This document shows positions 4,388-20,074 of a stretch of DNA of 64,000 nucleotides, one piece after another (within the stretch, counting starts at the first letter, position 1; the number at the start of each line of letters is the position of its first letter). The stretch is taken from the NCBI RefSeq assembly GCF_001050275.1, contig NZ_BBYA01000008.1:496001-560000 (forward strand), in the 5' to 3' direction. The notes below the pieces were generated by a model. The model had not been told where the DNA came from. It saw only the letters and a program-made list of their open reading frames with translations, and searched no databases. The DNA comes from Leptolinea tardivitalis. Its GTDB lineage: Bacteria > Chloroflexota > Anaerolineae > Anaerolineales > Anaerolineaceae. The position numbers were made by a program, and so were the translations under genes.

Positions 4388-5092
4388 ATGGCGACCAATG
4401 TTATGAACCAACCCGGACCTCTTCAAATGAAGGGGATCAGCCTTGCAGGGACAAATTTAAAAGGACGTGACCTGACCAAATCGGTCCTGGTAGATTGTGA
4501 TTTAAGCAGTGCCATTTTGCATGGTGCAATTCTGGTAAAAGCCGATCTGACCAATGCCAATTTAAATGATGCAATTTTGCAAGATGCCGACCTGACTGAA
4601 GTCTGCCTGAAGAATGCCCGTCTAATCGGAGCTTATCTGTGGAGGGCGAATCTTCAAAAGAGTAATTTGGAGAATGCCAATTTTGAACGTGCCTTTCTAG
4701 AATACACCATTCTAAAAGAAGCAAATATCAAGGGTGGAATCCTCAGGGAAGCGAAATTGAAAGGTTCCAATCTGGCAGGTGCCATCCTTCAGGGGGCCAA
4801 TTTGGATGGAACCGACCTGGTGAAAAGCAATATGCAGTCCGTCACCTTGCGGGATGCCAGCCTCAAAAAAGCCGATCTTCGCGAAGTGGACCTGAAAGGA
4901 GCACGGTTGATGGATGCTGATTTTTATCAGGCAAATCTGGCAGGTGCCATACTCAAGAATACCCACCTTGAAAGGGCAAATCTGGCTGGCGCCAACTTAC
5001 GTGGGGCTGACCTTTCAGGGGCTGACCTGGAAGATGCCATTATGCCTGATGGCAATCCATACGACCCCAAACATCCCCGGCGGGGATGGTAA
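4388..5092 (+). CDS. Pentapeptide-repeat protein (paralogue 2)
   Basis: A 234-residue pentapeptide-repeat protein built like its upstream neighbour, with A(D/N)LxxA-type repeats over about residues 20-220 and nearly the same C-terminal tail (MPDGNPYDPKHPRRG). The pair looks like a tandem duplication that has since diverged; the N-termini differ (this one starts with a short Gln/Pro-rich leader). The chosen ATG has no clear ribosome-binding site, and an ATG at 4403 is an alternative. A GC-rich palindrome (5070-5087) lies inside the 3' coding end. It converges with the lipoprotein gene ending at 5119. Function unknown. Confidence 0.83.
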   Translation: MATNVMNQPGPLQMKGISLAGTNLKGRDLTKSVLVDCDLSSAILHGAILVKADLTNANLNDAILQDADLTEVCLKNARLIGAYLWRANLQKSNLENANFERAFLEYTILKEANIKGGILREAKLKGSNLAGAILQGANLDGTDLVKSNMQSVTLRDASLKKADLREVDLKGARLMDADFYQANLAGAILKNTHLERANLAGANLRGADLSGADLEDAIMPDGNPYDPKHPRRGW

Positions 5093-5118: not shown

Positions 5119-5634
5119 TCAGGGAAGCGGACTGTATACATATCCTTTGAAGACGACCTGTCCGGTTGAACGTTCTACAACCTTGAACAGGATATTTTCA
5201 TCTACTGCCGGAATTCGGCCAACACAATACAATCGTTCCGGGTGGTTATATTCTACAAGTGGACGGCAGGTGAATTTTTTGGGGGGATCATCCACCAGTG
5301 CATCGTATTCACCTTTGATTTCATCCGGCAATTGGATTGTTATTCCAAAATCCCAGCCCGGCCGTGGGCCGAAGGAATACAAGCGCGCTTTTGAGAAATC
5401 GTCTACAGGTGGAAGAAGAGTTGGAGTGGGCGTAATTGTAGGAGTATTGGTAGGTAGTTCAGTTTTTGTCGGTAGTGGTGTTGGAGTACGTGTAGGTTTT
5501 GGTGGACGGATGGTTGGTCTTAATGTGGCTGTTTCAGTCGGTTTGGAAAATGAGAGATTCGAACATCCGGCCGTTGTGAATAGACTGGATGAGAGTAAAA
5601 CAAAGAGAATGAAGATTTTGAATTTCTGGATCAT
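5119..5634 (-). CDS. Lipoprotein with Thr-Pro linker, last gene of export cassette A
   Basis: A 171-residue protein from the ATG at 5634, which overlaps the upstream stop as ATGA (5631-5634). A longer reading from 5697 would add residues before a perfect signal peptide and is rejected. The signal peptide runs to the lipobox TTAGC. A Thr/Pro linker (about residues 30-75) leads to a small domain (about 78-171) with two Cys (FTCRPLVEY and LYCVGRIP) that could form a disulfide. The domain is not recognised. Its translational coupling to two adaptor genes suggests it is an accessory of the ABC export system. Confidence 0.75.
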   Translation of the reverse strand: MIQKFKIFILFVLLSSSLFTTAGCSNLSFSKPTETATLRPTIRPPKPTRTPTPLPTKTELPTNTPTITPTPTLLPPVDDFSKARLYSFGPRPGWDFGITIQLPDEIKGEYDALVDDPPKKFTCRPLVEYNHPERLYCVGRIPAVDENILFKVVERSTGQVVFKGYVYSPLP

Positions 5635-6860
5635 GGTAGCGGGGTCTCCGATTTGGTTCGAGTAACTGGGAAAGTCACTCGGGCTGTCATGTTCCATAAT
5701 AACCGTTCATCTGTTCCCTGTAAATCGATAGTAACTGTGTATGTGTTATCTCCTCGCACTGACACTCCATAACCTTTCACCCGATTGACTGTTCCTTTCA
5801 TCTCAAGACCAGGAATGGCGTCAAACGTTATGGTAACAGGCATGCCAGCTTCAATGCCCACGATGTCAACTTCTTTCAAATCAGTGGTTTCAACCTGCCA
5901 GGCAGAAATATCTCCAATCATTACCTGCCCGGCTGAAGCCAATTCTCCGATTGCAAGGTTATTCACAATGATCTGGCCGTCAAAAGGAGCGGTCAATTCA
6001 AGGTCAGCCAAAGATGAACGGGCGGCATCCACCTGTGCTGTGGCATTCTTGACGTTGGCTTCGGCTATAGCAAGATCTTTGGGATCCGGGCCAGTTTTCC
6101 GGCGCTCATAGGTTCGTTGGGCATCTTCCAGGGCGGCTTGAGCTTTGGATACTCGGGCATCTGCTTCGGCAATGTCCTGGCTCGTTGGTGGCCCTTCTGC
6201 ATATTCCAGGTTACGTTTCACCTGATCCCGGGCCAGGCGGGCCTGTGATAGATACATCAATGCTTTGGCTCGGTCGGCATCATCTTCAGGCCTGTCTTGG
6301 ACGTAACTGAAAGCAGTTTCAGCATCATCAACAGCCTGCTCGGCCATGGTTAATTGAGCCTGGATACTTTCCAACATGTACTGATTTACCCGTTTGTAAT
6401 TCAGGTCTTCACGATGGTCCTTAGCGTCCTTGAGTTCCTGTGATGCTACGGCTACAGCCATTTCTGCATCAGCTTCGGCCAGTTTGGCTTTCTCTTTCAA
6501 ATCGTCCAGCGCTTTTTTTGCCGAAGCTTCCTGCAATTCAGCAGCTGCAATGGCAGCCTGGGCATGTTCACTGCCTTCCAGATGGGCAATGGGATCTCCT
6601 TTTTTTACGAAAGAACCTTCCGGTGCCTGGATGGATTCAATTTTGCCTGTAGCAGCAAAACTTAACGTTGAACTTCGGATAGGGATGACTTTTGCTTCAG
6701 CCGCTGCACCTGCACCAGTTTTTACAGGCACTGCCGGGGTTGGCGTGGTTTTCGTAAAAGTATTGCATCCTGCAAGCAACACAAAGCCAGAGATCAAGAC
6801 GATGATCCCGATTGACAGATATTTCTTTTGAAGATGGGTTCGTGAAAATGCTGTCTTCAT
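5631..6860 (-). CDS. Lipoprotein HlyD/MacA-type adaptor, cassette A, second
   Basis: A 409-residue efflux adaptor. The signal peptide ends in the lipobox LLAGC (about residues 28-32), so it is lipid-anchored outside the membrane. Then come a first barrel/lipoyl half (FAATGKIESI, EGSFVKKGDPIAHLEG), a long alpha-helical coiled-coil hairpin rich in Ala, Glu, Asp and Lys (about 100-285), the second lipoyl half (DLELTAPFDGQIIV) and a beta-barrel (VTITFDAIPGLEMKGTVNRV). Known adaptors of this family link an inner-membrane ABC permease to substrate or to an outer channel. It overlaps its neighbours by 4 bases on both sides (ATGA at 6857-6860 and at 5631-5634), so the group is translationally coupled. 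The hairpin has no cysteine, unlike the cassette B adaptors. Confidence 0.85.
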   Translation of the reverse strand: MKTAFSRTHLQKKYLSIGIIVLISGFVLLAGCNTFTKTTPTPAVPVKTGAGAAAEAKVIPIRSSTLSFAATGKIESIQAPEGSFVKKGDPIAHLEGSEHAQAAIAAAELQEASAKKALDDLKEKAKLAEADAEMAVAVASQELKDAKDHREDLNYKRVNQYMLESIQAQLTMAEQAVDDAETAFSYVQDRPEDDADRAKALMYLSQARLARDQVKRNLEYAEGPPTSQDIAEADARVSKAQAALEDAQRTYERRKTGPDPKDLAIAEANVKNATAQVDAARSSLADLELTAPFDGQIIVNNLAIGELASAGQVMIGDISAWQVETTDLKEVDIVGIEAGMPVTITFDAIPGLEMKGTVNRVKGYGVSVRGDNTYTVTIDLQGTDERLLWNMTARVTFPVTRTKSETPLP

Positions 6861-8032
6861 TTTTCAAATGCCACAAACGCTTTCATATTCCATAGCAAAC
6901 GTGGATCAGATTCATCAAGATCAATGGTGACTGTGTATGTGGTATCACCCTTGCTGGCGACACCCATTTGCTTGATGCGGTTAACCACCCCTGAAATTTT
7001 CAATGAGGGGATGGCGTCAAAAGTGACTACGGCCTTATCACCCGGATGGATATTGACTATATCCAATTCCACCAGATCTGTTGTTTCAACCTGCCAGGCA
7101 GAAACATCTCCCAGCATTACTGTGTTCGCTGGACTGACAGCTTCTCCAATTTTTAGATCATTTGAGATCACTGTGCCTGAGAATGGGGCAATAAGTTCAA
7201 GATCGTTCAGGCTGGATTGGGCGGATTTTAATTGAGCATCTGCATTGGTTACGGCTGCTTCCAGAATGGATAATTGTGACGCGTCAGGGCCGTCTTTGAC
7301 TTTGTCATACGTCGATTGTGCGTCATTAAGAGCTGCCTCAGCCAGTGCCAACCGCGCATCCGCCTTTGCTATTTTCTCGGGATCAGGCATCTCCAGTGCT
7401 TTATTCAAGTTATACAGGGCTTTGTCTTTAGCCAGCCTGGCATTTGAGAGTTTGGCCAGGTATTCAGCCCTTTCAATATCTTTTTCTCCGCGATCTTTGT
7501 ATGGTTCATAATCATCTTCTGCCTCTTTGAAATCAGAGAGCGCCATGTAATATGTGGCACGCAATCCATCCAGTGCGGCACCGGACACTTGCTGATAATC
7601 GAGGCTTTTTCGAGCATCACGGGCATTTTTTAATTCTATTTGCGCTTTTGCCAGAACAAGTTCCGCCTCTGCTTTTGATACATTCGTCTTGTCTCGAAAG
7701 TCGTCCAGATTTTTCTGGGCAGTAAGCTTAAGAACTTCTGCCTGCGTGATGGCGGCTTTTGCCCGATCAATCCCCTTTAAGCGTGCGATGACATCGCCTT
7801 CTTTAACAGACTGACCTTCCGTAACGAGGACTTCATCAACTATACCGGGAACGGAAAAGCTCAATGCTGCATTATGTACGGGAATTACTCTGGCTTCTGT
7901 CAGAGTACGAGGGGCAACAACTGTTGCAGATGAAACAGTCTGGGTTGGTTCCGGGGATTTTCCGATGACTGCACAACTGGATAACAAGACCATTGCTGGA
8001 ATTATTACTAAACCATTGATAATACGATTCAT
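6857..8032 (-). CDS. Lipoprotein HlyD/MacA-type adaptor, cassette A, first
   Basis: A 391-residue adaptor read from the ATG at 8032. That start gives a clean lipoprotein signal peptide (MNRIINGLVIIPAMVLLSSC) with an AAGAAGAAAG purine tract before it. An upstream ATG at 8122 would place 30 charged residues ahead of the signal and is rejected. Domain order is as in its tandem paralogue: lipoyl half (EGQSVKEGDVIARLKG), helical hairpin, second lipoyl half (LELIAPFSGTVISNDL), beta-barrel (AVVTFDAIPSLKISGVVNRI). The two adaptors probably arose by duplication and may act as a mixed ring on the permease encoded just upstream. Confidence 0.85.
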   Translation of the reverse strand: MNRIINGLVIIPAMVLLSSCAVIGKSPEPTQTVSSATVVAPRTLTEARVIPVHNAALSFSVPGIVDEVLVTEGQSVKEGDVIARLKGIDRAKAAITQAEVLKLTAQKNLDDFRDKTNVSKAEAELVLAKAQIELKNARDARKSLDYQQVSGAALDGLRATYYMALSDFKEAEDDYEPYKDRGEKDIERAEYLAKLSNARLAKDKALYNLNKALEMPDPEKIAKADARLALAEAALNDAQSTYDKVKDGPDASQLSILEAAVTNADAQLKSAQSSLNDLELIAPFSGTVISNDLKIGEAVSPANTVMLGDVSAWQVETTDLVELDIVNIHPGDKAVVTFDAIPSLKISGVVNRIKQMGVASKGDTTYTVTIDLDESDPRLLWNMKAFVAFEK

Positions 8033-8114
8033 TTCTTTCTTCTTACAATTCCTGAATGAGTTCTCTTTCAGGGAAGAGCAAATTAATTCTAGCCGAAATA
8101 TCCGTGATTTGAGG

Positions 8115-10523
8115 TTATTCATACGCTAACACTTCTCGGATCGTTAGATGTGCAGCATTGCGGGCAGGAATAACGCTGGCAGATACCGACAGGATAATTA
8201 CAAGCACAAGCCAGACAATGAAACCCGTGGGGGTAATGGAGAGGACTGACGGTGCATCAAACAATGCCCGGCTGAGGATATCAGAAAGGGCGTTACTGAT
8301 TGGAAATGATAGAAGGCTGCCGAGAATCCAACTGATAATCCCGATCAGCAGACCTTCAACAATCACCAGGGACATAACGGTTCGATCCGATGCCCCGATT
8401 GCCCGCATGATCCCGATTTCGCGGGTTCGGTCCATGACATTCATACTCATGGTACCCATTAATCCAATTGCGCCGACAAGGGCTGTAAGGAAGGCCATAA
8501 ATACAAGAAAGGTTGTGAGGATATTAAGCCCTTCCGTACTCGAATTTAATGCGAACAGACCTGCATTTACACTGGCCACTTTATAACCTCTGGTGCGCAT
8601 ATATTTCTCAATGGTACTGCCAAATTGACGTTGTTGTTCGATATTTAAATTTGGCGTTTTTGAACTGATTTGGAATGATATGGCTTTATCTGGGCTGCCG
8701 ATGAAATGAGAAAGGTATTCATAATTGCTGTATGCCCTGAAACCGGTACTTTTTCCCGCCAGTTGGAAGAACCCGACGACAGTCCATTTACTCTTGACGC
8801 CGTTCACCCGAAGATCAAGCGTATCCCCGACCTTAAGATCGGGTTTGGCTGAAAGAAAACGTTCACTCAAAACAATGGCATTTTCGTCGCCTGGAATTAT
8901 CCAACGACCTTTAATTAAAATAGGTGTGATCAACCGGCTTTGGGGATCGACACCCAGCATTTCCACCGGTTCACCCGGTTTGTCATTGGCCTCCATTACT
9001 TCACATTGTGCGTAAGTCCAACCTTCAATGATGTCGATCCCAGGTAATGTCTTCAAATCTTTCTGTACCTGGTCGATTCGATAGAACTGATCCATAGTCA
9101 TGCTGACATCAGCTATGAAGTATTTGCTAACTCGCTTTATATAAAGGGTCAGTGCCCCCTGAACATTAAATGTGGCGATAAAAATGGCGCCACCCAGAGT
9201 AAGAGTGAACAAAGTCAGAGCCAGACGACCTTTATGCCGGAATGTGTTTCGCAGGGATATCAACATAGGATGAGATATGCCGCGGATGCGATTTATCCAT
9301 CGATCAAAAGCATCGTCTTTATGATCTGAAGCGATATTACTTCCACCGCTTATAGCCTGAACGGTTTTTATCTTTGCACCGCTGTAAATTGGGAAAAAGG
9401 CGGCTACCTGCGGAACAATCAGGGCGATACCAGCCTGTAAGAATACTGTTCGGGCAATCAACCGGTACCCCTGGACATCAAAATTCAAGGTCCCGGAAAG
9501 GAAATTTACCAGTGCATACGCAGACCAATTGGCTGTTGGAATGGCCAGAGCGAGAGCGATGGCTCCATATAACGCGATTAACACCATGTAAATGGTGATG
9601 ATAGACATACGCCGAGCGCCGATTGTTTTCATCACTCCAATTTGTCTGATTTGTTGGTTCATTAATGCCGATAAGGTATTTGTAATCAGGAATCCACTCA
9701 GGAATACAACCAACATACCCAGAATAAACAACACTCCGGACAGCGCATCGATATAAATAGAATTGGGGTGACTTTTCGTCGTACGAATTACAGTAGATGT
9801 AACCACACCACCATAATCCTCAATCTCTTTATTTACATCTTTTGATAGATCTTTTAAGTGCTCTTCATCGTTTTTTCCGGTTTTTGACGTGATCAGCATT
9901 TCATTATAAATAGCCGGCTGTTCCAACCAGTCGAGGGTATGTACAGTGATGTATCCATTTACTGGAGCAATGAAATAGCCGCCGCCTCCTCCGGTAGCGC
10001 CTATTGTTTGATCATGCACAATCCCTGTGAGTTTGACTTCGCGGGTTTTTCCAGATGGAAGCTGTATTTCAATCATCTCCCCGAGGTTTGCGGCTACGTC
10101 ATTGCGCTTACTGATATCAATGGAAATTTCCCTATAGTCAGGCGGCCAGCTGCCCTGTAACAGCTTTACTTTATTTATAACAGTCTCATCAATTTCAGGA
10201 ATAGCCTGTATTGCCAGCCTGTCCCACTCACCGTTTTTATTTTTATAACGCAGGGTCATGGACCGCCGGCCTTCAACTTCAGCCACATCTGGTAAATCCC
10301 GAATTTTGTCGATAAGTGAATCTGTAAATCCGGGAATAAAAATATGCAGATTTGCCGGATTGACAGCTGTATAACCGATCTCCATATCCTTATTAATTAT
10401 CTCGTTGATACTGGAGATGATTCCCACGGCATATAATCCGACGGCGATGGAAGCAATCACCAGCAAGGAACGGGTCTTATTTCCCCACAAATCTGCAAAA
10501 ACCTTTTGCCAGCGAGGCCTCAT
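8115..10523 (-). CDS. ABC transporter permease with two FtsX halves, cassette A
   Basis: An 802-residue inner-membrane permease of the MacB/LolC/FtsX class (type VII ABC). Each half has one helix, an extracytoplasmic domain and three more helices. Helices are at about residues 15-38, 263-290, 305-330 and 355-378 in the first half, and about 425-450, 670-695, 715-740 and 770-795 in the second. Both halves show the FtsX helix-2 pattern followed by IRQIGVMKTIGA (first half) and REIGIMRAIGA (second half). A fused pair of halves needs two ATPase subunits, and exactly two ATPase genes precede it. Such systems use ATP to drive extracytoplasmic work or export rather than moving substrate through the membrane helices. 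The start overlaps the upstream ATPase stop as ATGA. Confidence 0.88.
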   Translation of the reverse strand: MRPRWQKVFADLWGNKTRSLLVIASIAVGLYAVGIISSINEIINKDMEIGYTAVNPANLHIFIPGFTDSLIDKIRDLPDVAEVEGRRSMTLRYKNKNGEWDRLAIQAIPEIDETVINKVKLLQGSWPPDYREISIDISKRNDVAANLGEMIEIQLPSGKTREVKLTGIVHDQTIGATGGGGGYFIAPVNGYITVHTLDWLEQPAIYNEMLITSKTGKNDEEHLKDLSKDVNKEIEDYGGVVTSTVIRTTKSHPNSIYIDALSGVLFILGMLVVFLSGFLITNTLSALMNQQIRQIGVMKTIGARRMSIITIYMVLIALYGAIALALAIPTANWSAYALVNFLSGTLNFDVQGYRLIARTVFLQAGIALIVPQVAAFFPIYSGAKIKTVQAISGGSNIASDHKDDAFDRWINRIRGISHPMLISLRNTFRHKGRLALTLFTLTLGGAIFIATFNVQGALTLYIKRVSKYFIADVSMTMDQFYRIDQVQKDLKTLPGIDIIEGWTYAQCEVMEANDKPGEPVEMLGVDPQSRLITPILIKGRWIIPGDENAIVLSERFLSAKPDLKVGDTLDLRVNGVKSKWTVVGFFQLAGKSTGFRAYSNYEYLSHFIGSPDKAISFQISSKTPNLNIEQQRQFGSTIEKYMRTRGYKVASVNAGLFALNSSTEGLNILTTFLVFMAFLTALVGAIGLMGTMSMNVMDRTREIGIMRAIGASDRTVMSLVIVEGLLIGIISWILGSLLSFPISNALSDILSRALFDAPSVLSITPTGFIVWLVLVIILSVSASVIPARNAAHLTIREVLAYE

Positions 10524-11713
10524 TTTTTGAGTTTTACCTCCCGAGAGCCTGATAGTTCGAAATCAAATCCGGCTTCCAATTTTTGTATATAATCCTGAAA
10601 ACTTCGTGATGATGTGATGATGTTCTGTAAATTATCTGTAGAGATATATTTCATACGTGCAGATGATCGGTTGCTAATTCGGAAGTTTCTCCTGGCTTCC
10701 AGGTTTTTCTTAATAAAACCTCCTGGCAGCACAGAACCACTTTCATAACTGGCTTGTCTTTTTCCATCGTCGGATCGCATTTCAACCTGACCATCGACCA
10801 CAAGTAGAAGGCCTGGTAATTCGTTGGATTCGAAAAATAAGTTTTCTCCAGGTTCCTTCCTGATTTCGAGTGCTTCATGTGATAAACGTAACATTGAACG
10901 GTGTGATATATGCGGCAAAATACGGGAAATATCTTCATCCACCAATTCACCATCACAAATCACTAGTGTTCGAGATGCCCTTTGTGCCACAGCTTCATCG
11001 TGGGTAACCACAAGAACAGTTTTTCCTTGTTTTACGAGTTTATCGATAAGCTGTAAAACCAGATCAGCTGTCTTTGAATCAAGGTTTCCCGTGGGTTCAT
11101 CGGCAACAATGATCGGGGGGTCATTCGCCAATGCCCGGGCAATGGCTGCACATTGCTCCTGGCCTCCAGATACTGCCGCTGGGAGTTTGTCTTTGAAATC
11201 GTGAAGGCCAACCAGATCCAGCAATTCCTCTGCCCGAATATCACGTTCAGGCGGAGTGTACATATTACAAAAATCCATCGGTAAGATGGTGTTTTCTTTC
11301 AATGTCAACATGGGCAGTAATTGAAAAAACTGGAAAACAATTCCCAGGTTTCGTCCACGCCATTCTGAAAACTCACTCTCTGTCAGATCCTGTAGATAGG
11401 TTTCACCGATCAGGATTTTTCCCGAGGTTGGCCGATCGATGCCGGTGATCATATTCAACAGGGTAGATTTTCCGCTTCCAGATTTTCCAATTATGCTGAC
11501 AAATTGACCGGGGAAAAAACGCGCCGAAACACCTTTCAAGGCTGTAAATTCACCGGCATTTGTCTTATATACTTTGTAAATATCCTGCATCTCTATCAGA
11601 GGCTGAAGGTCTGATTTCCCATTGGCATTTTCTTCCGGCTTCCGATCAATGATTTCGATGGGTTTCTTTATAGAGTGGGATCTTAAGCGTGTGGGAATTT
11701 GTATTGGACGCAT
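10520..11713 (-). CDS. ABC ATPase with degenerate signature and C-terminal cNMP-binding-like domain, cassette A
   Basis: A 397-residue protein. Residues about 40-260 form a MacB/LolD-type ATPase: Walker A GKSGSGKST, Q-loop VFQFF, Walker B IIVADEPT, D-loop GNLDS and H-loop VVTHD are intact. The signature reads SGGQEQCAAIARAL, where this family normally has [14 protein letters not shown], so the conserved Arg is Cys. Residues about 270-390 look like a cyclic-nucleotide-binding beta-roll (LRLSHEALEIRKEPGENLFF, LLLVVDGQVEMRSDDGK, SVLPGG). No clear phosphate-binding cassette Arg-Ala pair was recognised, so ligand binding is uncertain. It follows the other ATPase by 25 bases and overlaps the permease gene by 4. 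Confidence 0.85.
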   Translation of the reverse strand: MRPIQIPTRLRSHSIKKPIEIIDRKPEENANGKSDLQPLIEMQDIYKVYKTNAGEFTALKGVSARFFPGQFVSIIGKSGSGKSTLLNMITGIDRPTSGKILIGETYLQDLTESEFSEWRGRNLGIVFQFFQLLPMLTLKENTILPMDFCNMYTPPERDIRAEELLDLVGLHDFKDKLPAAVSGGQEQCAAIARALANDPPIIVADEPTGNLDSKTADLVLQLIDKLVKQGKTVLVVTHDEAVAQRASRTLVICDGELVDEDISRILPHISHRSMLRLSHEALEIRKEPGENLFFESNELPGLLLVVDGQVEMRSDDGKRQASYESGSVLPGGFIKKNLEARRNFRISNRSSARMKYISTDNLQNIITSSRSFQDYIQKLEAGFDFELSGSREVKLKK

Positions 11714-11738
11714 TTATCGAAGTCCAGATGAAAAGGGA

Positions 11739-12602
11739 TCAGGCGGTTGCGACGATGGATTTCATGGAGATATTTGTTGAATCTCCTGTTTTTAGTTCAC
11801 CATCGACGATCTCCAGCACCCTGCTGGCACGTTGGGCGGCACTGGCGTCATGTGTAACCATAATAATGGTTTTGCCTTCTTTAACCATGTGCTCAAATAT
11901 ATCAAGTATTGTCTCTGCCGTGGTTGAATCCAGCCGACCAGTGGGTTCATCAGCCACAATTACCGGTGGATCATTGGCTAATGCACGGGCAATAGCCACA
12001 CGCTGCTGCTGGCCGCCAGAGATGGCGTTGGGTAGTTTATTCATATGTTCTTCCAATTCGACCATACGCAGCAATTCACGGGCACGTTCGCGGCTTTTAC
12101 CTGGTGTATAGAGATGACAGAAATCCATGGGAAGCATTACATTTTCAAGAAGGGTAAGCATGGGCATTAACTCAAATGACTGGTAGATGATTCCCAGATT
12201 CAAACCCCTCCAAAGGGCCTGCTCATCCTCAGACATATCATGAACTGAGATGCCATTCACATTCACTTTACCTGATGAGATCGAATCAACTCCGGTAATC
12301 ATATTAAGCAGCGTAGTTTTACCCGCACCGGATTTCCCGACGATACAGAGAAACTCATTCGGGTCAATTGATACCGTAATCCCTTTTAATGCTTGAAAAT
12401 CTCCTGCTGGGGTTTGGTAATTTTTTTTGACATCCTGAAGTGTGATAATAGATCCAACAACGGTAGAATCAATTTTATTTGATTCAACGGCATGGATTTC
12501 GTTGGAGGAGTTATCTGAAATGGTTGAAGGAAACCATTTCGGCTTTATTATTTCAAGATTTTTTAAAACAGCATACTTCATTATATTTTCTTGCCCGGTC
12601 AT
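11739..12602 (-). CDS. ABC ATPase with intact motifs, first gene of cassette A
   Basis: A 287-residue ATPase of the MacB/LolD class. An N-terminal extension of about 50 residues precedes the domain. Walker A GKSGAGKTT, Q-loop IYQSF, signature [14 protein letters not shown], Walker B VIVADEPT, D-loop GRLDS and H-loop MVTHD are all canonical. The ATG at 12602 has AAGG 4 bases upstream; a TTG at 12605 and an ATG at 12581 are alternatives. Since the downstream permease is one chain with two halves, this subunit probably pairs with the degenerate ATPase as a heterodimer (inference). Confidence 0.87.
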   Translation of the reverse strand: MTGQENIMKYAVLKNLEIIKPKWFPSTISDNSSNEIHAVESNKIDSTVVGSIITLQDVKKNYQTPAGDFQALKGITVSIDPNEFLCIVGKSGAGKTTLLNMITGVDSISSGKVNVNGISVHDMSEDEQALWRGLNLGIIYQSFELMPMLTLLENVMLPMDFCHLYTPGKSRERARELLRMVELEEHMNKLPNAISGGQQQRVAIARALANDPPVIVADEPTGRLDSTTAETILDIFEHMVKEGKTIIMVTHDASAAQRASRVLEIVDGELKTGDSTNISMKSIVATA

Positions 12603-12870
12603 CAAGCCTTAACACTAACATGCAAAATCCCAGGAAGGGATTTTTATTTCGTAAATGGAAGGATATGAGTACTGTACATCACCTGTGACGATATTCCGTA
12701 TCCCTTGCGTCATAATTCAAGGTCATATATAGATATAGTCGTTCCATTCATGAAAAGCCGAAGTCAATTTAACCATTCCTCGGATAAATTTCGATTAAGA
12801 GTTTTATAAGAATTAATCAAAAAGAAGCTGACACAGAAGAGAATCCTTATATTTGTATCTCCTACTTTAA
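12603..12870. other. Spacer between export cassettes A and B, cassette A promoter region
   Basis: AT-rich spacer upstream of the cassette A ATPase. On the minus strand a TTGACT (near 12764) and TATATCTATAT (near 12727-12737) occur, but they are about 24 bases apart, too far for a good sigma70 pair, so the promoter is not assigned. On the plus strand a weak CTGACA (12828-12833), 16 bases, TATTTG (12850-12855) pair precedes the two hairpins at 12877-12984. Confidence 0.35.
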
Positions 12871-13002: not shown

Positions 13003-13683
13003 TTATTTCGATGAAGTCTTGCTCTCCAGGAGTTTGATGATAGGTTCCGCAAAGATCAGGTTATAACCGCCAGCACTTTTACGGGCTGTTGTCATCGCAG
13101 CTGCTGCGTTTGGTGTGGATTTGGTTGACGAGCTGCTTCCGCCTGCTGCCATCATCATTCCGGGCATTCCGCCAGGGCCGCCGGGCCCGCCCATCATGTC
13201 TCCGCCATTATTGGAACTACTAGACGAAGAGGATGAAGACGAAGTTAGACCATAGGAATCCATTAAATTTTTCAGATCTGAATAGGAGAGTTCCATTTTT
13301 TCAATAGCTGCCAGCTGGTCTGCTGTCATTGTATTTTTAATCTGAGTATTTAGAGCACGGATTTCGTCTACGGCTGTGTTATTGTTTGAGCTCAATGTTT
13401 TCAGAGCTTTAAATAAAGGAAGCAATTCTTTTGCTTTCGCTTCATCTACTGCCTGATCAGTTCCTTCCAGTTTCAATATCCCGATGCCCACTTTTGATTC
13501 GAGATTAAGTTGCGTGTTTTGACCATTACCGTCCGGCTGGCCTGCACCAGCATTGAATGAAGGATTCTGACTGTTGCTCTGAGTTCCGTTGGTGGAATTG
13601 CGTGACCAGGATTGTCTTGTGCTGCAGGCAGCCAGAACACCGATCAAAATCAGGATAATAGCGATAACGAATGACTTTTTCAT
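13003..13683 (-). CDS. Lipoprotein with Ser run and Gly/Met-rich tail, last gene of cassette B
   Basis: A 226-residue secreted lipoprotein: signal peptide MKKSFVIAIILILIGVLAAC with lipobox, then a Ser/Asn/Gln/Gly-rich linker. A helical domain (about residues 60-145; KAKELLPLFKALKTLSS, LNTQIKNTMTADQLAAIEKM) resembles metal-sensor and CpxP/Spy-like helical segments only in general character. A run of ten serines and a GGPGGPGGMPGMMMAAGG segment (Gly/Met-rich) follow, and then a C-terminal piece ending KLLESKTSSK. The Met-rich stretch could bind soft metals or be a plain linker. It follows the cassette B permease by 27 bases and is probably its accessory. Family not recognised. Confidence 0.75.
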   Translation of the reverse strand: MKKSFVIAIILILIGVLAACSTRQSWSRNSTNGTQSNSQNPSFNAGAGQPDGNGQNTQLNLESKVGIGILKLEGTDQAVDEAKAKELLPLFKALKTLSSNNNTAVDEIRALNTQIKNTMTADQLAAIEKMELSYSDLKNLMDSYGLTSSSSSSSSSSNNGGDMMGGPGGPGGMPGMMMAAGGSSSSTKSTPNAAAAMTTARKSAGGYNLIFAEPIIKLLESKTSSK

Positions 13684-13710
13684 AAGGATTGACCTTTCAT
13701 TTTCTAGAAA

Positions 13711-14952
13711 TTATTCGTGCCGGAGAGCCACGATTGGATCTAATTCAGCGGCATTTTTTGCCGGTACATATCCAAAGAAGATACCTACAAGGGCCGCGGA
13801 TAAGAAGGAGAGAAATACCGAATAGGGGAGGACGACCGTGCGCATTCCACCAACTGCATTGAAAATATACGATCCTCCCACACCTACAATGACACCAAGG
13901 ATTCCTCCGAAGAGACTTAGCATCAGAGCCTCTGATAGGAATTGAACACGAATATCCAATGGCGTAGCACCAATTGCCTGACGAAGACCAATTTCACGTG
14001 TACGTTCGGTAACGCTCACCAACATGATATTCATGATACCGATACCACCAACGATCAACGATACACCCGCCACGCCGGCTAACAGGGTACGGAAGGATTC
14101 GGTTGTGGATGACGCTGTGGCGATAATTTCATCCTGGGTTCTGATATTAAAATCCAGAGAATCTGTGCTGACTTTATGCCGGTTGGCCAAGAGAATGGTG
14201 ATTTGATTGATCACATTCTGCATGTTGGTGCTGTCAGCTACCGATACATAAATCATTCTCACGCGGTCACCCACAATACGGGCAAACATGGATGGTGTGA
14301 ATTTTTTAAACACCAGTTGAATAGGACAGTACATCTGTTCGTCAAAATCAGTACCAGAAACCAATCCCTTTGGCGAAAGCACTCCGATGACTGTGAGTTT
14401 GACATCATTCACCATAATTACCTGCCCAAGTGGATCACCATCAGGGAAAAGGCTTTCGGCAACGGAGCTGCCCAGCACAACCACTTTTGAAGCTTTGGTA
14501 ACCTCTTCATCGGTAAAGAAACGACCAGAACCTACTTCAAGCTCACGGACAGTGGTGTAATCTGGCGTAGTACCCACAAGAGTCAGGTCTTCCAGAGTAA
14601 TATCGTTCACTTTTGCTGTTAGGCTTGATTCTGATTGTTCCACAGCCACGCCGGCGATACCAGACACCTGATCACGAATGGCCGCAACATCTGAATATTT
14701 CAAGCCGCCTTTTTGATTGGTTGGTCCCTGACCTGGTCCACCACGGTTAAAGGATTCATTGATAAAAATCAGGTTGGAACCCAATCCGTTAATCTGTTCT
14801 GAAATTGTGGCCTCAGTTCCAGCGCTGATAGCAATCATCATGATTACAGCTGCCACACCAATAATCACGCCAAGCATTGTCAAAATGGAACGGAGCTTGT
14901 TTGAAAGAACACTCTGCCAGGCAGTATGGATAATTTCACGATAGTTCATCAT
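13711..14952 (-). CDS. MacB-type ABC permease, cassette B
   Basis: A 413-residue four-helix permease with the standard MacB/YknZ layout: an N-terminal helix (about residues 19-45, LTMLGVIIGVAAVIMMIAIS), a periplasmic-type MacB domain (about 50-280) and three C-terminal helices (about 290-315, 335-360, 375-400). The classic REIGLRQAIGA loop and the C-terminal ending LDPIVALRHE are present. The ATPase is a separate gene rather than fused as in proteobacterial MacB. Two ATGs start the gene (14952 and 14949); GAGGTG lies so close to the first that 14949 may be the true start. The family exports peptides, antibiotics or lipoproteins; the substrate here is unknown. Confidence 0.9.
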   Translation of the reverse strand: MMNYREIIHTAWQSVLSNKLRSILTMLGVIIGVAAVIMMIAISAGTEATISEQINGLGSNLIFINESFNRGGPGQGPTNQKGGLKYSDVAAIRDQVSGIAGVAVEQSESSLTAKVNDITLEDLTLVGTTPDYTTVRELEVGSGRFFTDEEVTKASKVVVLGSSVAESLFPDGDPLGQVIMVNDVKLTVIGVLSPKGLVSGTDFDEQMYCPIQLVFKKFTPSMFARIVGDRVRMIYVSVADSTNMQNVINQITILLANRHKVSTDSLDFNIRTQDEIIATASSTTESFRTLLAGVAGVSLIVGGIGIMNIMLVSVTERTREIGLRQAIGATPLDIRVQFLSEALMLSLFGGILGVIVGVGGSYIFNAVGGMRTVVLPYSVFLSFLSAALVGIFFGYVPAKNAAELDPIVALRHE

Positions 14953-14957
14953 TCACC

Positions 14958-15716
14958 TCAAATTTTCTGGGGCTGCATATCAATTGGTTGCAGAACCCGG
15001 CGGGCATAGTGATGTCCGTTTTTCTCATCGGAATGCAATCTACCATCACGAATATGAAGGATTCGTTCAGTATGAGCAGCAATTTCTGGTTCATGCGTAA
15101 CCATCACAATGGTGCGTCCGCGATCATGTAATTCATGCAGCATGTCCATGATCTCTTCACTGGATTTGGTATCCAGGTTACCGGTAGGTTCATCAGCCAG
15201 AATAAGGATAGGATCGTTGATCAATACCCGGGCAATGGCAACACGTTGCTGCTGACCACCTGAAAGTTCACTCGGAAGGTGATCGGCTCGTGCGCCCAGC
15301 CCGACACTTGTTAAGACCTTCATAGCCATTTCTTTCCGTTCTTGCATTGTCGTGGGTTTATCTGGCCGATACATCAGAGGCAGCATAACGTTTTCAATGG
15401 CCGTCATTCTTGGAAGCAGGTTGAAGGATTGAAAGACAAATCCAAGTTCTCGACCGCGAATTCTTGCCAATTCTGTGCGGCTATGGTGACTTACATCTTC
15501 TCCATTCAGAATGTATTGGCCGCTGGTGGGCCGGTCTAGACAGGCAAGAATGTTCATCAACGTGCTTTTGCCGGAACCGCTTGGACCCATGATGGCGACA
15601 AATTCACCTTCTGTGATGGTGATGCTGATAGAGTTGACTGCTATAACTTCATTGTCTCCGTCACCGTAGGTTTTCATCAAATTGATTGTTTCTATTATTT
15701 TCTTTTTCGGTTCCAT
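14958..15716 (-). CDS. MacB-type ABC ATPase, cassette B
   Basis: A 252-residue ATPase with canonical motifs: Walker [11 protein letters not shown]-loop [12 protein letters not shown], signature [14 protein letters not shown], Walker [10 protein letters not shown]-loop GNLDT and H-loop MVTHEPEIA. The start overlaps the upstream adaptor stop by one base (TAATG, 15714-15718), and the permease follows 5 bases after its stop, so the two are made together. It energises the permease as a homodimer, in contrast to the two-ATPase arrangement in cassette A. Confidence 0.92.
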
Positions 15717-17137
15717 TACTTTGTCTCCGTAATACCGGTAGTCACAGTTTGACCTTTTTCAAGCCCGGTCAAAATCTCGACGTAAGACGTATCCTTAAGG
15801 CCGATAGTGACTGTGTTCAACTTCAATGAACGGTCTTTCTCTACAGTAAATACACCATACTGGCCATCTCCGATTTCTCGTAAGGCAGCTATTGGCACGA
15901 GCAGTGTGTTTTCCGATTTTCCTTTATAAAGCGTTACCGAAGCTGTCAATCCCTGAAACAAGTTGGGAACTTCTGTCAAGTTTTCTGTATTCAGGGAGAT
16001 AATACCCTGTACTGTCGAGTAACCGCTGGTTGAAACCAGAGTTGGATTAACCTGGGTTACTGTTCCTTTGAAGGTGATACCTTCAATAGCATCGAAAGTG
16101 ACTTCGGCTTCTTCATCGACAGCTACATTTTGCAGATCAGTTTCGTCTACTACAAATTCGACCTGTGGATGAACATCATCCGCAACCGTCATGAAAACGG
16201 TATCTGAATCAACCCGGTCGCCTTCAACACCAGCTATGGTCAGAATGGTTCCATCAAATGGTGCAACGAGGGTGGCATTATCAAGATTGGTCTGAGCTAC
16301 ATCATACGCCGCCTGGGCTACTGCTACTTTATTTTCTGCTGTAGCCAGATCAACAGGGTCAATGCCATCATTCTTTAGAAGGGTTTCAAGCTTGGTTTCG
16401 TCGATTTGCAACTGGGCTTTGGCCAGATTCAAATTTGCCTGAGATTTATCTACCTCATAAGATTTATATTCCGCACAGTACTGGTATGTAGCGTAAGCCT
16501 GCAATGCAGCATCTTTGGCTGGAACAATAACGGTAAGATAATAGTTGCCGTCAACAGAACCATCATTCAATTCGTTATATTTGTTCTGAAGCCGAATGTA
16601 ATTATCATAATAAGCGGACGTGGTTTTTTGATCACACCGGATTTGACCTTGTTTAATTAATCCAGCTTCAGCATCTGCCAGATTCTTTTTATCCGTGGAA
16701 ATAGCCAATTGGGCATTGCCAATGGCGGCACTGGCGTTATCTTTGAGATCCTGGAGTTCCTTTTGCGCTGTTACCAGTGCAAGTTTTGTGGAGGTTACTT
16801 CGGAAGATAGTGTAGAAAGGTTTTCAAGTTTGGCCAGAACATCACCTTTTTTTACCTTTTCACCAACTTTCACGTTGATCTTTTCAACCGTACCATCGAT
16901 AGAGAACGAGAGTTTTGCCTGCCGGTTGGCCACCAGTGTTCCTGTTCCCGTAGCCGTGACCGATATTTCTCCTTCTCTGACAGTAGATGTTCCGTACCTT
17001 TGACCAAAAACAGCGGTTGTAGGCATTTGTGGACGTCTGGTCATTAAGTAATATGTTGCTCCACCTGCGATGGCCAAAATGACAACACCGATGATGATCA
17101 ATACTTTACGAGACGGTAATTTTATCTTTTTGAACAT
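15716..17137 (-). CDS. Membrane-anchored HlyD/MacA-type adaptor, cassette B, third
   Basis: A 473-residue adaptor with an N-terminal membrane anchor (about residues 12-32), lipoyl half (IDGTVEKINVKVGEKVKKGD), a helical hairpin (about 108-275), second lipoyl half (ATLVAPFDGTILTIAG), beta-barrel (AEVTFDAIEGITFKGTV) and a membrane-proximal domain ending in GLEKGQTVTTGI. Two cysteines (Cys168 in IRCDQ and Cys221 in YQYCAEY) bracket the hairpin tip, a feature shared with both sister adaptors upstream. GGAG precedes the ATG. It is immediately followed by the ATPase gene. Confidence 0.9.
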   Translation of the reverse strand: MFKKIKLPSRKVLIIIGVVILAIAGGATYYLMTRRPQMPTTAVFGQRYGTSTVREGEISVTATGTGTLVANRQAKLSFSIDGTVEKINVKVGEKVKKGDVLAKLENLSTLSSEVTSTKLALVTAQKELQDLKDNASAAIGNAQLAISTDKKNLADAEAGLIKQGQIRCDQKTTSAYYDNYIRLQNKYNELNDGSVDGNYYLTVIVPAKDAALQAYATYQYCAEYKSYEVDKSQANLNLAKAQLQIDETKLETLLKNDGIDPVDLATAENKVAVAQAAYDVAQTNLDNATLVAPFDGTILTIAGVEGDRVDSDTVFMTVADDVHPQVEFVVDETDLQNVAVDEEAEVTFDAIEGITFKGTVTQVNPTLVSTSGYSTVQGIISLNTENLTEVPNLFQGLTASVTLYKGKSENTLLVPIAALREIGDGQYGVFTVEKDRSLKLNTVTIGLKDTSYVEILTGLEKGQTVTTGITETK

Positions 17138-17189
17138 TGGATATTAGCTCCTCTCCATTGCTGGAGTATTTTTCTTGATTAAGTCAAAC

Positions 17190-18659
17190 CTATTTGATCG
17201 TGCTAATTACCACTTTGTCACCGACTTTCAAATCGCCGGTAACTTCGGCTTCTGAAGATGATTTTTCTCCAACACTCACAGTGTGGGCGGTATATGTTCC
17301 ATCCGAATTCATTACATAAACCTGTGCCTGATTATTGTCTTCGTTTTTTAAGGCCTGCAGGGGTACTTTCAAGACATTACTTGCAATCGTGCAATTTAAT
17401 TCAACAGTGGCATTCATTCCCACTGGCATGTTGGTTATGCCGGATGAAGAATCATTCTTTACACTGATATATGTTGCAATAGAAGTAACGCTGTTTGAGT
17501 CTGTCAATGACGGATTGATTTGAGTGATTACACCGTCGAATGTCCTGTCAGTAATGGCAGTAAAGGTTATTTTTGCCGGGCACCCCGTCTTCACGCTGGC
17601 AAGGTCTGATTCGTCAAAATTGGCTAACAGAACCGGCTGACTCAAATCGGCTATTTCTATGAAAGGCGATTTATAGGTATCCTTATTGAGAATTTCTCCT
17701 ACAGCAGAGGCCACGGTAATAACGGTTCCATCAATCGGTGAAATCAATGTAGCGCCATTCAGTGTGTTTTGAGCCTGCTCCAACTGCAATTCGGCATTCT
17801 TCTTTTTCGCCTGAGCAATGGCTAGCTCATCAGGGTCAATCCCATCATTGGCTTTCAACTTCTCGTAATACTCTTTTGCTTTGTCATAATCTGACTGGGC
17901 TTTTTCTACCGCTGCTTTAGATTGTTCAATCTCAAGATCAGAATAACCTTCACAATATTTCCAGTTGGCAAAATTTTGATCCATGGATTTTTTGAAAGGA
18001 GCCATTCTTTCCTGAATATACATATCGCCGTAACCCGTATTATGTTTTATCAGGGCGTTGTACCAGTAAAGATAGTCATGCCGGGCGTACATATAGTCAT
18101 AGTAGTACTGCTCAGTCGTGTCTTTTCCACAACGGGATGAATATTTATTGACTTCGCTTTTTTGGGCAGTTTCCAAAGCTTTAGCCGCATCTGATTGGGC
18201 AATCAGAGCATTTGACAGGTTAACTTCTTTATTTGTTTCCAGATTGTCCAGTTCCTGCTGAGCTTTGGCCAGGTCAAGTTTGGCATTTTCGACGGCTTCC
18301 TGGAGCGTTGATATTTGATCAAGTTTTGCCAGGATATCTCCTTCTGATACTGATTTTCCGGGATTTACATTGAGTTCTGCTACTTTGCCTGTGGTGGAAA
18401 AAGCTAGATCAATTGCATTGGGCGCAACGATTTTGCCTGTGCCCGAAATGTCGGTGGTTAAGTCTCCCTGAGTGACTTCGGCTGTCTTGATAGTCTGTGT
18501 TGTTTTTGCCTGGCTTTTTCCAGATGATTGGAATTGGATAAAAGCCAGACTGCCTATCGCAAGGAGAACGATGATCAACCCACCGATAATCAGGCGTTTG
18601 TTTTTTAATTTCATAAACGCATCCATGATACGATCCTTAATGGTTCGGGTAGACATCAT
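17190..18659 (-). CDS. Membrane-anchored HlyD/MacA-type adaptor, cassette B, second
   Basis: A 489-residue adaptor: anchor helix at about residues 22-42, lipoyl half (LNVNPGKSVSEGDILAKLD), helical hairpin with Cys177 (SSRCGKD) and Cys236 (WKYCEGY) around a Tyr-rich tip, second lipoyl half (ATLISPIDGTVITVAS), beta-barrel (AKITFTAITDRTFDGVI) and C-terminal domain. It also has Cys in TGCPAKI and LNCTIAS. The start overlaps the preceding adaptor stop as ATGA (18656-18659), with a doubled ATG. It is the most divergent of the three and may occupy a distinct position in a mixed adaptor ring (inference). Confidence 0.9.
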   Translation of the reverse strand: MMSTRTIKDRIMDAFMKLKNKRLIIGGLIIVLLAIGSLAFIQFQSSGKSQAKTTQTIKTAEVTQGDLTTDISGTGKIVAPNAIDLAFSTTGKVAELNVNPGKSVSEGDILAKLDQISTLQEAVENAKLDLAKAQQELDNLETNKEVNLSNALIAQSDAAKALETAQKSEVNKYSSRCGKDTTEQYYYDYMYARHDYLYWYNALIKHNTGYGDMYIQERMAPFKKSMDQNFANWKYCEGYSDLEIEQSKAAVEKAQSDYDKAKEYYEKLKANDGIDPDELAIAQAKKKNAELQLEQAQNTLNGATLISPIDGTVITVASAVGEILNKDTYKSPFIEIADLSQPVLLANFDESDLASVKTGCPAKITFTAITDRTFDGVITQINPSLTDSNSVTSIATYISVKNDSSSGITNMPVGMNATVELNCTIASNVLKVPLQALKNEDNNQAQVYVMNSDGTYTAHTVSVGEKSSSEAEVTGDLKVGDKVVISTIK

Positions 18660-20074
18660 TTTGTACCAGATGAGATACCTGTGCTGATGACGTCGTTTTC
18701 CTGCAATCCCGATTTGATTTCGGCGGTTGAGCTATCCATTATTCCTACTTCAACGATTTTGAATATCAGGTTGCCATCATTTCCACGTACAAATACTCCA
18801 TACTGGTTGTCTCCTATGGCTCGCAGCGCATTGGCCGGAACAAGCAGGGCATCTTTTACTTCGGCAGAAGTAATAGTGACACTTGCATTCACGCCGAGCG
18901 GCATCTTTTCCAGGTTGCTGCCAGAGATGTTATCCAGACTAATGACTGCTGTAGCTACCCGGTATTGGCCGGAGCTGGATAGTTGCGGGTTGACCTGAAT
19001 AACTTCACCAGAATAGGTTTCGTTGGGGAGAGAATCAAAGATGACTTTTGCTTTAGCTCCCACATGTAATTTATCCACATCCGTCTCGTCAATACTGACA
19101 TTTACATCAGAGGTGGTCAAATCAGAAATTGTGATATACGTAGATGTGTCTACATACGCACCAACATTGGCCTTCAGATAAGTCACCGTACCATCAATAG
19201 TAGCGGTCAGCGTGGAACCAGCCAAATTCTCTTTTGAAAGGTCAAGTTTGATTTGGGCTTCATCGAGTTTTGCTTCTGCCAGTTTCAATTCATCTGGATC
19301 AATACCCGATGCTGCCTTCAAGGTTTCATATTTTGCTTTAGCCTGTTTTAGCGTAACATCCGCCACATTCAGAGATGCCTGAAAGTCTGTCTTTTCCTGG
19401 TCAGTATATTTGATACAGTATTCATAATTCGCCAGAGCGGTGTCATACACGTTCTTGGCCTCATTCCAGGCATCTGAACCCTGATACCGTAAACCGATTT
19501 CGTTCAGACGATCTTGAGCTCTTTGCAGTTTAGCCAGATTCTGGGTGTTTACAGTATCACTGCAACGGGCATAATCTTTTCGTTGCAACTTTTTTTCTGC
19601 CTCATCATATGCCTGTTGGGCAGTAAGGACAGCCTGATAAGCTTCCGCCAGATTGACATCTTTGGAGCTCTGAAGATCATTGAGGTTTTTTTGAGCTTGT
19701 AGAACATTCAATTCATTGGCCGCCACCTGTGCCTCCAACGTTTTAGCGTTGTTCATACTGGCCAATTTCATACCCTTTGTAACCTTATCGCCAGCTTTTA
19801 CATTCAACTCTTGAACAATGCCTTCGGTAGAAAAACTCAGGTCAACCGATTTCCCGGCGACCAGCGAACCAGTACCTGTAGCTGTTATTGTCAGGTCACC
19901 TTTTCGAACAAGGGATGTTTGATAGGAGGGTGATGCTTCAACGGCAGTCTTCTTACCAAACGATATCATTCCGCTATTCAAAAGCCAAAAACCTGTGCCA
20001 CCGATAATAATCAAAGCTACAATGGTGGGTATCCATATCTTTTTCTTTGAAGCAAAATTTTTTAGAAAACTCAT
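18656..20074 (-). CDS. Membrane-anchored HlyD/MacA-type adaptor, first gene of cassette B
   Basis: A 472-residue adaptor. Anchor helix at about residues 13-33, lipoyl half (LNVKAGDKVTKGMKLA), helical hairpin (about 112-282) with Cys171 (YARCSDT) and Cys220 (YEYCIKY), second lipoyl half (STLTATIDGTVTYLKA), beta-barrel (AKVIFDSLPNETYSGEVI) and a C-terminal domain ending near EIKSGLQENDVISTG. A strong ribosome-binding site, GGGAGGTAACTAG, precedes the ATG, fitting its place as first gene of the operon. No tolC-like gene is nearby. Confidence 0.9.
   Translation of the reverse strand: MSFLKNFASKKKIWIPTIVALIIIGGTGFWLLNSGMISFGKKTAVEASPSYQTSLVRKGDLTITATGTGSLVAGKSVDLSFSTEGIVQELNVKAGDKVTKGMKLASMNNAKTLEAQVAANELNVLQAQKNLNDLQSSKDVNLAEAYQAVLTAQQAYDEAEKKLQRKDYARCSDTVNTQNLAKLQRAQDRLNEIGLRYQGSDAWNEAKNVYDTALANYEYCIKYTDQEKTDFQASLNVADVTLKQAKAKYETLKAASGIDPDELKLAEAKLDEAQIKLDLSKENLAGSTLTATIDGTVTYLKANVGAYVDTSTYITISDLTTSDVNVSIDETDVDKLHVGAKAKVIFDSLPNETYSGEVIQVNPQLSSSGQYRVATAVISLDNISGSNLEKMPLGVNASVTITSAEVKDALLVPANALRAIGDNQYGVFVRGNDGNLIFKIVEVGIMDSSTAEIKSGLQENDVISTGISSGTK

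Follow-up and report, generated by a model that had tools for sequence, protein, structure and literature searches.

We analysed a stretch of 64,000 nucleotides from Leptolinea tardivitalis (contig NZ_BBYA01000008.1, positions 496,001 to 560,000), hereafter the window, to which the coordinates of this locus refer; the host genome comprises 3.69 Mb in 15 contigs. The window carries a compact operon on the minus strand (5119-12602) which encodes, in order of listing, two ATP-binding cassette (ABC) ATPases, here called A and B, a permease, two adaptors and a small putative lipoprotein (Table 1). A gap of 25 bases separates A from B, and the remaining junctions (B/permease, permease/adaptor 1, adaptor 1/adaptor 2 and adaptor 2/last open reading frame (ORF)) all overlap. 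The start of A was placed at the ATG at 12602, the mechanically delimited ORF beginning three bases further out, with a TTG at 12605. The interval 10520-12602, which a prediction made earlier from the sequence had assigned to the ATPase pair, runs from the stop of B to this ATG.

Both ATPases contain a nucleotide-binding domain (NBD) of the LolD/MacB type. Their best NCBIfam matches were LolD, FtsE and MacB, all below the equivalog cut-offs (for A, LolD at 210 bits against 307.75), so the assignment holds at subfamily level only; the PADLOC matches were generic ATPase matches. The nearest small solved relative is the NBD of MJ0796 (1L2T, 1F3O; 1L2T with E 5e-55 against A and 1.6e-51 against B), which has SGGQQQR and, unlike B, no C-terminal tail. 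The full-length AlphaFold2 model of B reached a mean predicted local distance difference test (pLDDT) score of 89.2. In the permease, Pfam FtsX (E 3.9e-25) and MacB_PCD (E 4.9e-15) each matched in two stretches, and a hydropathy scan predicted eight transmembrane (TM) segments, four per half. NBDs of the LolD/MacB type, an FtsX/MacB_PCD permease and MacA-like adaptors are also found in the type VII ABC systems MacB, LolCDE, FtsEX, YbbAP and BceAB, and YbbP has two fused permease halves like those of the window permease, according to an excerpt of PMC5985334. The default guess for the role of the operon would be MacAB-like extrusion of peptides, lipopeptides or drugs.

The original prediction had stated that the two ATPases differ, and this was confirmed: both are genuine ABC_tran proteins at the predicted place, A with the signature SGGQQQR and B with SGGQEQC. 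In B, the third residue past the Gln, the Arg of SGGQxxR, is replaced by Cys at position 188. The term "degenerate signature", which had been applied to B, has to be corrected as regards the SGGQ core, which is unaltered in the window B. Both window ATPases also keep Walker A, the Walker B Glu and the H-loop His intact.

Gene decay of B was considered and ruled out: the frame is open, the ABC domain is 81-87% identical within the genus (four genomes), and the ratio of nonsynonymous to synonymous substitution (dN/dS; NG86 method) is 0.06, a value from the only one of six genus comparisons with unsaturated dS. The tail of B evolves much faster: its identity is 33-48%, and the three comparisons out of six with unsaturated dS gave dN/dS of 0.21-0.41.

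Table 1. Features of the A-B operon and of the adjoining cassette, with positions in the window.
Feature	Position	Strand	Description
ATPase A	11739..12602	-	tail-less NBD of LolD/MacB type, SGGQQQR; ABC_tran Pfam E 3.5e-32
Walker A of A	12315..12338	-	GKSGAGKT, Ala two before Lys; read from the sequence
Signature Arg codon of A	12000..12002	-	Arg of SGGQQQR, residue 202 of P0002; read from the sequence
ATPase B	10520..11713	-	NBD of LolD/MacB type, SGGQEQC, with C-terminal tail of cyclic-nucleotide-binding (CNB) fold; ABC_tran Pfam E 4e-33
Cys188 codon of B	11150..11152	-	replaces the signature Arg; B reads AVSGGQEQCAAIARAL; read from the sequence
Tail of B	10523..10927	-	residues 263-397 (135 aa), CNB fold, cassette Glu and Arg both missing
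Fused permease	8115..10523	-	802 aa; two MacB_PCD + FtsX halves; 8 predicted TM segments, 1+3 / 1+3
Adaptor 1	6857..8122	-	HlyD/MacA-like, lipoprotein-type N-terminus; HlyD_D23 E 2.3e-12; LSSC taken by eye as lipobox
Adaptor 2	5631..6860	-	HlyD/MacA-like, lipoprotein-type N-terminus; HlyD_D23 E 1.2e-10; LAGC taken by eye as lipobox
Small putative lipoprotein	5119..5697	-	Pro/Thr-rich, end of operon; no Pfam match; counterparts close the same operon in loci L038 and L039
Second cassette, adaptors	15716-17137, 17190-18659, 18656-20074	-	
Second cassette, ATPase	14958-15716	-	LSGGQQQR
Second cassette, permease	13711-14952	-	FtsX/MacB_PCD

Relatives of the pair were collected from three sources: a scan of the contigs of 84,980 species, from which the best 80 of 528 confirmed loci were kept; 147 genomes of the same family, from which 30 loci were requested; and 400 genomes drawn across Chloroflexota, searched at E up to 1e-65, from which 86 regions outside the family were fetched. 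All relatives belong to Chloroflexota, and our claims are restricted to that phylum. Among the best 80 of the 528 confirmed loci, the nearest relatives of B share 63-69% identity with it and come from records named Leptolinea. There is overlap between named and unnamed loci, and the only duplicates removed were those with an identical ABC-domain sequence, which defines the distinct sequences counted below. Single ATPases at contig edges, with their neighbours cut off, were left out of the counts (three in the first set, one with and two without the Arg, and four in the phylum sample, three with and one without it). The remaining singles are quoted as one group of 89, in which the 51 labelled as tailed include four whose tail is absent or cut.

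Two architectures were found. Some loci encode a single ATPase, often of ~385-400 aa with a tail and sometimes short and tail-less, and others a tandem pair of a short tail-less A and a long tailed B, adjoined by a single permease with two halves. The host genome itself carries on contig C11 another cassette of the A/B family, with one short ATPase, an intact SGGQQQR and a related permease adjoining it, which serves as an internal control. In the first set the signature Arg was present in 58/58 distinct A, 0/58 B and 35/35 singles, and in fused proteins in 5/5 A halves and 0/5 B halves. In the phylum sample it was present in 21/22 A, 1/22 B and 60/60 singles, and the one fused pair had it in the A half and not in the B half. 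When the sets were merged, an altered signature beside a consensus partner, with exactly one Arg-bearing ATPase, was found in all 79 distinct pairs. The Arg column itself, counted over related and therefore not independent sequences, gave 89/89 distinct singles, 78/78 distinct A and 0/78 distinct B. The residues that replace the Arg in B are L, S, C, A, M, I, Q and T, and 54 of the 78 distinct B have a further substitution at the second residue of SGG (T 47, S 4, N 2, R 1). The catalytic (Walker B) Glu and the H-loop His were kept in every distinct A and B (78/78 each). Five of the 79 distinct pairs are natural A-B fusions in one chain, and the A-B gap is at most 30 nt in 73 of the 74 unfused pairs.

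Orthologues with a restored signature or without a tail, which the original prediction had named as speaking against it, were sought among these loci. Among B proteins of the A-B type, none has regained the Arg. Locus L195 (910-2326), the sole exception to the A-B order, is a tail-less pair with the roles swapped, its first member reading SGGQQQC and its second SGGQQQR with an A-like Q-loop, and at L182 (1610-2377) the open frame of a B-type ATPase with STGQQQL ends without a tail. L195 was excluded from the column statistics and included in the 79-pair count. A second, independent origin of L195 was considered and not established, as placement within the same A/B split was not rejected by the approximately unbiased (AU) test, whether its Cys member was grouped with B (p-AU 0.51) or its Arg member with A (p-AU 0.56).

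The changes of A and B were then compared over the whole ABC domain. Singles conserve 92 columns to at least 90%; B has mostly lost three of these, and of the three the Arg column alone is gone from every B. A has changes of its own: in Walker A, the Ser two before the Lys became Ala (76 of the 77 distinct A that have a letter in this column; 77/78 B have Ser); in the Q-loop, a Phe pair became Tyr and Ser, the second Phe being kept in 0/77 A; the helical part has an Arg-to-Ser change, the D-loop Asn is replaced by Ser or Arg, and two further changes are conservative. As the motifs are arranged, the Walker A and Q-loop changes of A and the signature change of B meet in one composite site, and the other composite site, formed by Walker A of B and the signature of A, stays ancestral. 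Of all the sequence evidence, this complementarity speaks most strongly for a fixed heterodimer.

We consider it probable that A and B are obligate partners in an NBD heterodimer that has one signature-degenerate site and is seated under a fused type VII permease of 4+4 TM segments with lipoprotein-type adaptors. This assembly is favoured because there is one Arg per pair, A-B fusions occur, the changes are complementary, the single permease has two halves and the A-B gaps are short. It is unlikely that A2 and B2 are separate homodimers which share or swap on one permease, B2 being slow or regulatory. Retention of the Walker A Lys, the Glu and the His in both proteins would agree with such an arrangement, as would the short single ATPase with an intact signature on contig C11, and assembly cannot be read directly from a sequence; against it stand the five distinct fusions, the rule of exactly one Arg per pair, and the convergence of the derived changes of A and B on the same composite site.

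The position of the changed residue suggests what an unequal pair might do. In CFTR, the Walker A residue two before the Lys is Ala in the degenerate site and Ser in the consensus site. By position, the third after the signature Gln, we take the signature Arg to be the equivalent of CFTR R555, assuming the usual numbering of the CFTR signature. In open CFTR channels, R555 reaches across the NBD dimer to bond with T1246 in the Walker A of the partner, and both positions have co-evolved; the same Arg-Thr/Ser bond was reported in crystal structures of nucleotide-bound NBD dimers (both from an excerpt of PMC4956468). Channel activity and opening are strongly lowered by Q, A or C at position 555, according to passages of PMC5626490. 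By the same logic, the Arg of A would bond with the Walker A Ser of B and close the consensus site, where most hydrolysis would occur. The Cys of B (Leu, Ser, Ala or others elsewhere) would be unable to form the bond, and the other site would bind ATP and close weakly, or turn over slowly, serving as a hinge or an ATP clamp. Each stroke of such a pump might cost about one ATP, and its polarity with respect to the permease halves would be fixed.

A heterodimer without functional asymmetry, in which B lost the Arg by tolerated drift and hydrolysis is equal at the two sites, is rather unlikely. The variety of the replacing residues would suit it, and so would the intact SGGQ of the window B and the intact Glu and His of both proteins. 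Drift of this kind is at odds with the complete absence of Arg loss in singles (0/89) and in A (0/78), with the alteration of SGG itself in many B proteins, with the co-variation of A in Walker A and the Q-loop, and with the strong impairment of gating by Q, A or C at the equivalent CFTR position (PMC5626490, in the passages cited above). Several points nevertheless weigh against a heterodimer with unequal sites. With the Glu and the His intact on both sides, impairment of the altered site may be no more than mild; the varied replacements of the Arg would fit a relaxation of constraint just as they would fit a new role; and the change may be tolerated and not useful. Other genes lie between B and the permease at some paired loci, and the pairs share ancestry, so the 79 of 79 represents few independent events.

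In summary of the site arrangement, the original prediction had proposed one consensus and one degenerate ATP site on a fused two-half permease. The unequal ATPases, the 79 pairs and the five fusions uphold it, but the degeneracy lies on the signature side only, with the Lys, Glu and His kept. An exchange of the Walker B Glu in one partner, frequent but not universal in ABC proteins with a degenerate site, was not found; classical degenerate sites often lose this Glu as well (excerpt of PMC7756269). CFTR, TAP, TmrAB, BmrCD and TM287/288 likewise combine one consensus and one signature-altered site, in CFTR with R555 at the same Arg position; they have the type IV fold and often a changed Walker B Glu, whereas the window pair keeps it. 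RbsA and NupO, fused NBDs of type II importers, have one site degenerate by sequence, as in A-B (excerpt of PMC11466899); unlike A-B, they serve importers and have also lost Walker A and Walker B residues.

The C-terminal tail of B, predicted to be cNMP (cyclic nucleotide monophosphate)-binding-like, was examined by structure prediction, and the CNB fold was recovered. The match of the window tail to Pfam cNMP_binding (PF00027) was below threshold (E 0.047, 14.1 bits against a curated cut-off of 27.5). The AlphaFold2 model of the tail alone had CNB topology and a mean pLDDT of 88.6, the alignments used including better-kept relatives, which helps the model. Against solved CNB domains, it gave a best Foldseek E of 4.3e-08 and a VIA-align Z of 13.9, with a root-mean-square deviation of 3.4 Å over 132 aligned residues. 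Tails of relatives matched Pfam cNMP_binding at E up to 0.05 in 50 of 59 cases, and a profile of 68 tails found the CNB domains of PKG, PKA, CAP and channels in the PDB (best 1.3e-56). The whole B tail thus shares its fold with CAP/GlxR, PKG/PKA, HCN and CNG domains (Z up to 13.9), from which it differs in being fused to an ABC ATPase and in lacking the Arg of the phosphate-binding cassette.

We take the Glu and the Arg of this cassette to have their usual roles, the Arg binding the phosphate. Among distinct tails of singles, the Glu was kept in 47/47 and the Arg in 25/47, versus 49/77 and 0/77 in distinct B tails; the window tail has neither. In the host, the tail is most likely a CNB-derived domain without cNMP sensing, to judge from the loss of both residues in the window and of the Arg in all B tails. 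That the tail still functions in the host as a cyclic-nucleotide sensor, switching transport on or off, is very improbable: the CNB fold, the Pfam matches of relatives and the frequently kept cassette of singles would speak for it, but the state of the cassette in B tails and in the window protein speaks against it, as does the lack of a class III cyclase. PF00211 was found neither in the host genome nor in the three other genomes of the genus searched (absent from 4/4: G000, G064, G065 and G066), versus 36 of 37 other genomes positive in the same search. A link from cyclase loss to pocket decay was considered and dropped, since a cyclase is present in 23 of 31 family genomes, some of which combine it with a decayed pocket (several cases), and genus g39 has none yet keeps the FGE motif.

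The original prediction had regarded the tail as a regulatory cNMP domain on the weak half; the cassette data make cNMP regulation unlikely. Nor was the tail added to the weak half, for many single ATPases with an intact signature carry it too. For the same reason the tail predates pairing, being ancestral and lost by A. On the single-ATPase ancestor it was perhaps a true cyclic-nucleotide switch; on B, having lost the phosphate-binding Arg, it may have been kept for an interaction or scaffold role, the pocket decaying further in this genus.

Phylogenetic analyses addressed the origin of the pair. In a tree of a random subset of rows without distant outgroups, A and B each formed one clade. 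When distant ABC outgroups were included, the root fell inside B, with long branches flagged; this is probably a long-branch effect. Judged by their sequences, A and B stem from one duplication or very few, and because the trees fit one duplication, the paired-Arg counts are not independent. The imbalance looks like an old, preserved design rather than a stray mutation.

In the type VII systems listed in the excerpts used, the NBDs are copies of one protein, while the window pair consists of two diverged genes, one with a CNB tail. LolD is a dimer of one protein (excerpt of PMC8277102), and all eight Bacillus subtilis type VII systems have two copies of one NBD (Table 6 in the part of PMC11466899 used). 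Heterodimeric or fused permeases are described for type VII, with NBDs that, where listed, are two copies of one protein, whereas the degenerate sites described belong to type IV exporters and to two fused NBDs of type II importers (excerpts of PMC5985334, PMC10094684, PMC8277102 and PMC11466899). Within partial texts of the open-access PubMed Central literature, neither a type VII system with a heterodimeric NBD pair nor this CNB-tailed ATPase family was found described; dimer terms gave no match in PMC12646458.

We regard it as an evenly balanced proposition that a type VII (mechanotransmission) lineage turned from a CNB-tailed NBD homodimer to an obligate heterodimer with one signature-degenerate site, the unpaired intact, paired and fused forms all surviving. 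If this is true, a polar drive of a MacB-like machine by about one ATP, with a former nucleotide sensor as part of an asymmetric dimer, would be a mechanism not described for the superfamily in the open-access literature searched. Degenerate ATP sites have long been puzzling in ABC biology and were studied mainly in type IV exporters; the same trick seems to be present in a different fold. At the residue equivalent to CFTR R555, the paired loci provide a set of natural variants (Arg, or Cys, Leu, Ser, Ala and others), in every case alongside a partner that bears Arg, and the unpaired relatives still living pose directly the question of what asymmetry adds.

Further observations concern the surroundings of these genes. 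A second MacAB-like cassette lies directly upstream of the operon (window 13003-20074, minus strand) and also holds a Ser/Gly-rich protein of 226 aa; its gene order adjoining the A-B pair is kept in L038 and L039. Just past the operon end, a pentapeptide-repeat protein is encoded on the plus strand (window 4388-5092; Pfam E 3.2e-66). At L108 (7887-12376), two large proteins with GAF, histidine kinase and response regulator domains (Pfam) stand between B and the permease, and ORFs of similar size occupy this place at L078, L104 and L117. Single ATPases of ~500 aa with tails of 257-276 aa occur at L138, L157, L171 and L191, the protein of L138 (1592-3094) having two cNMP_binding stretches (Pfam E 1.9e-41).

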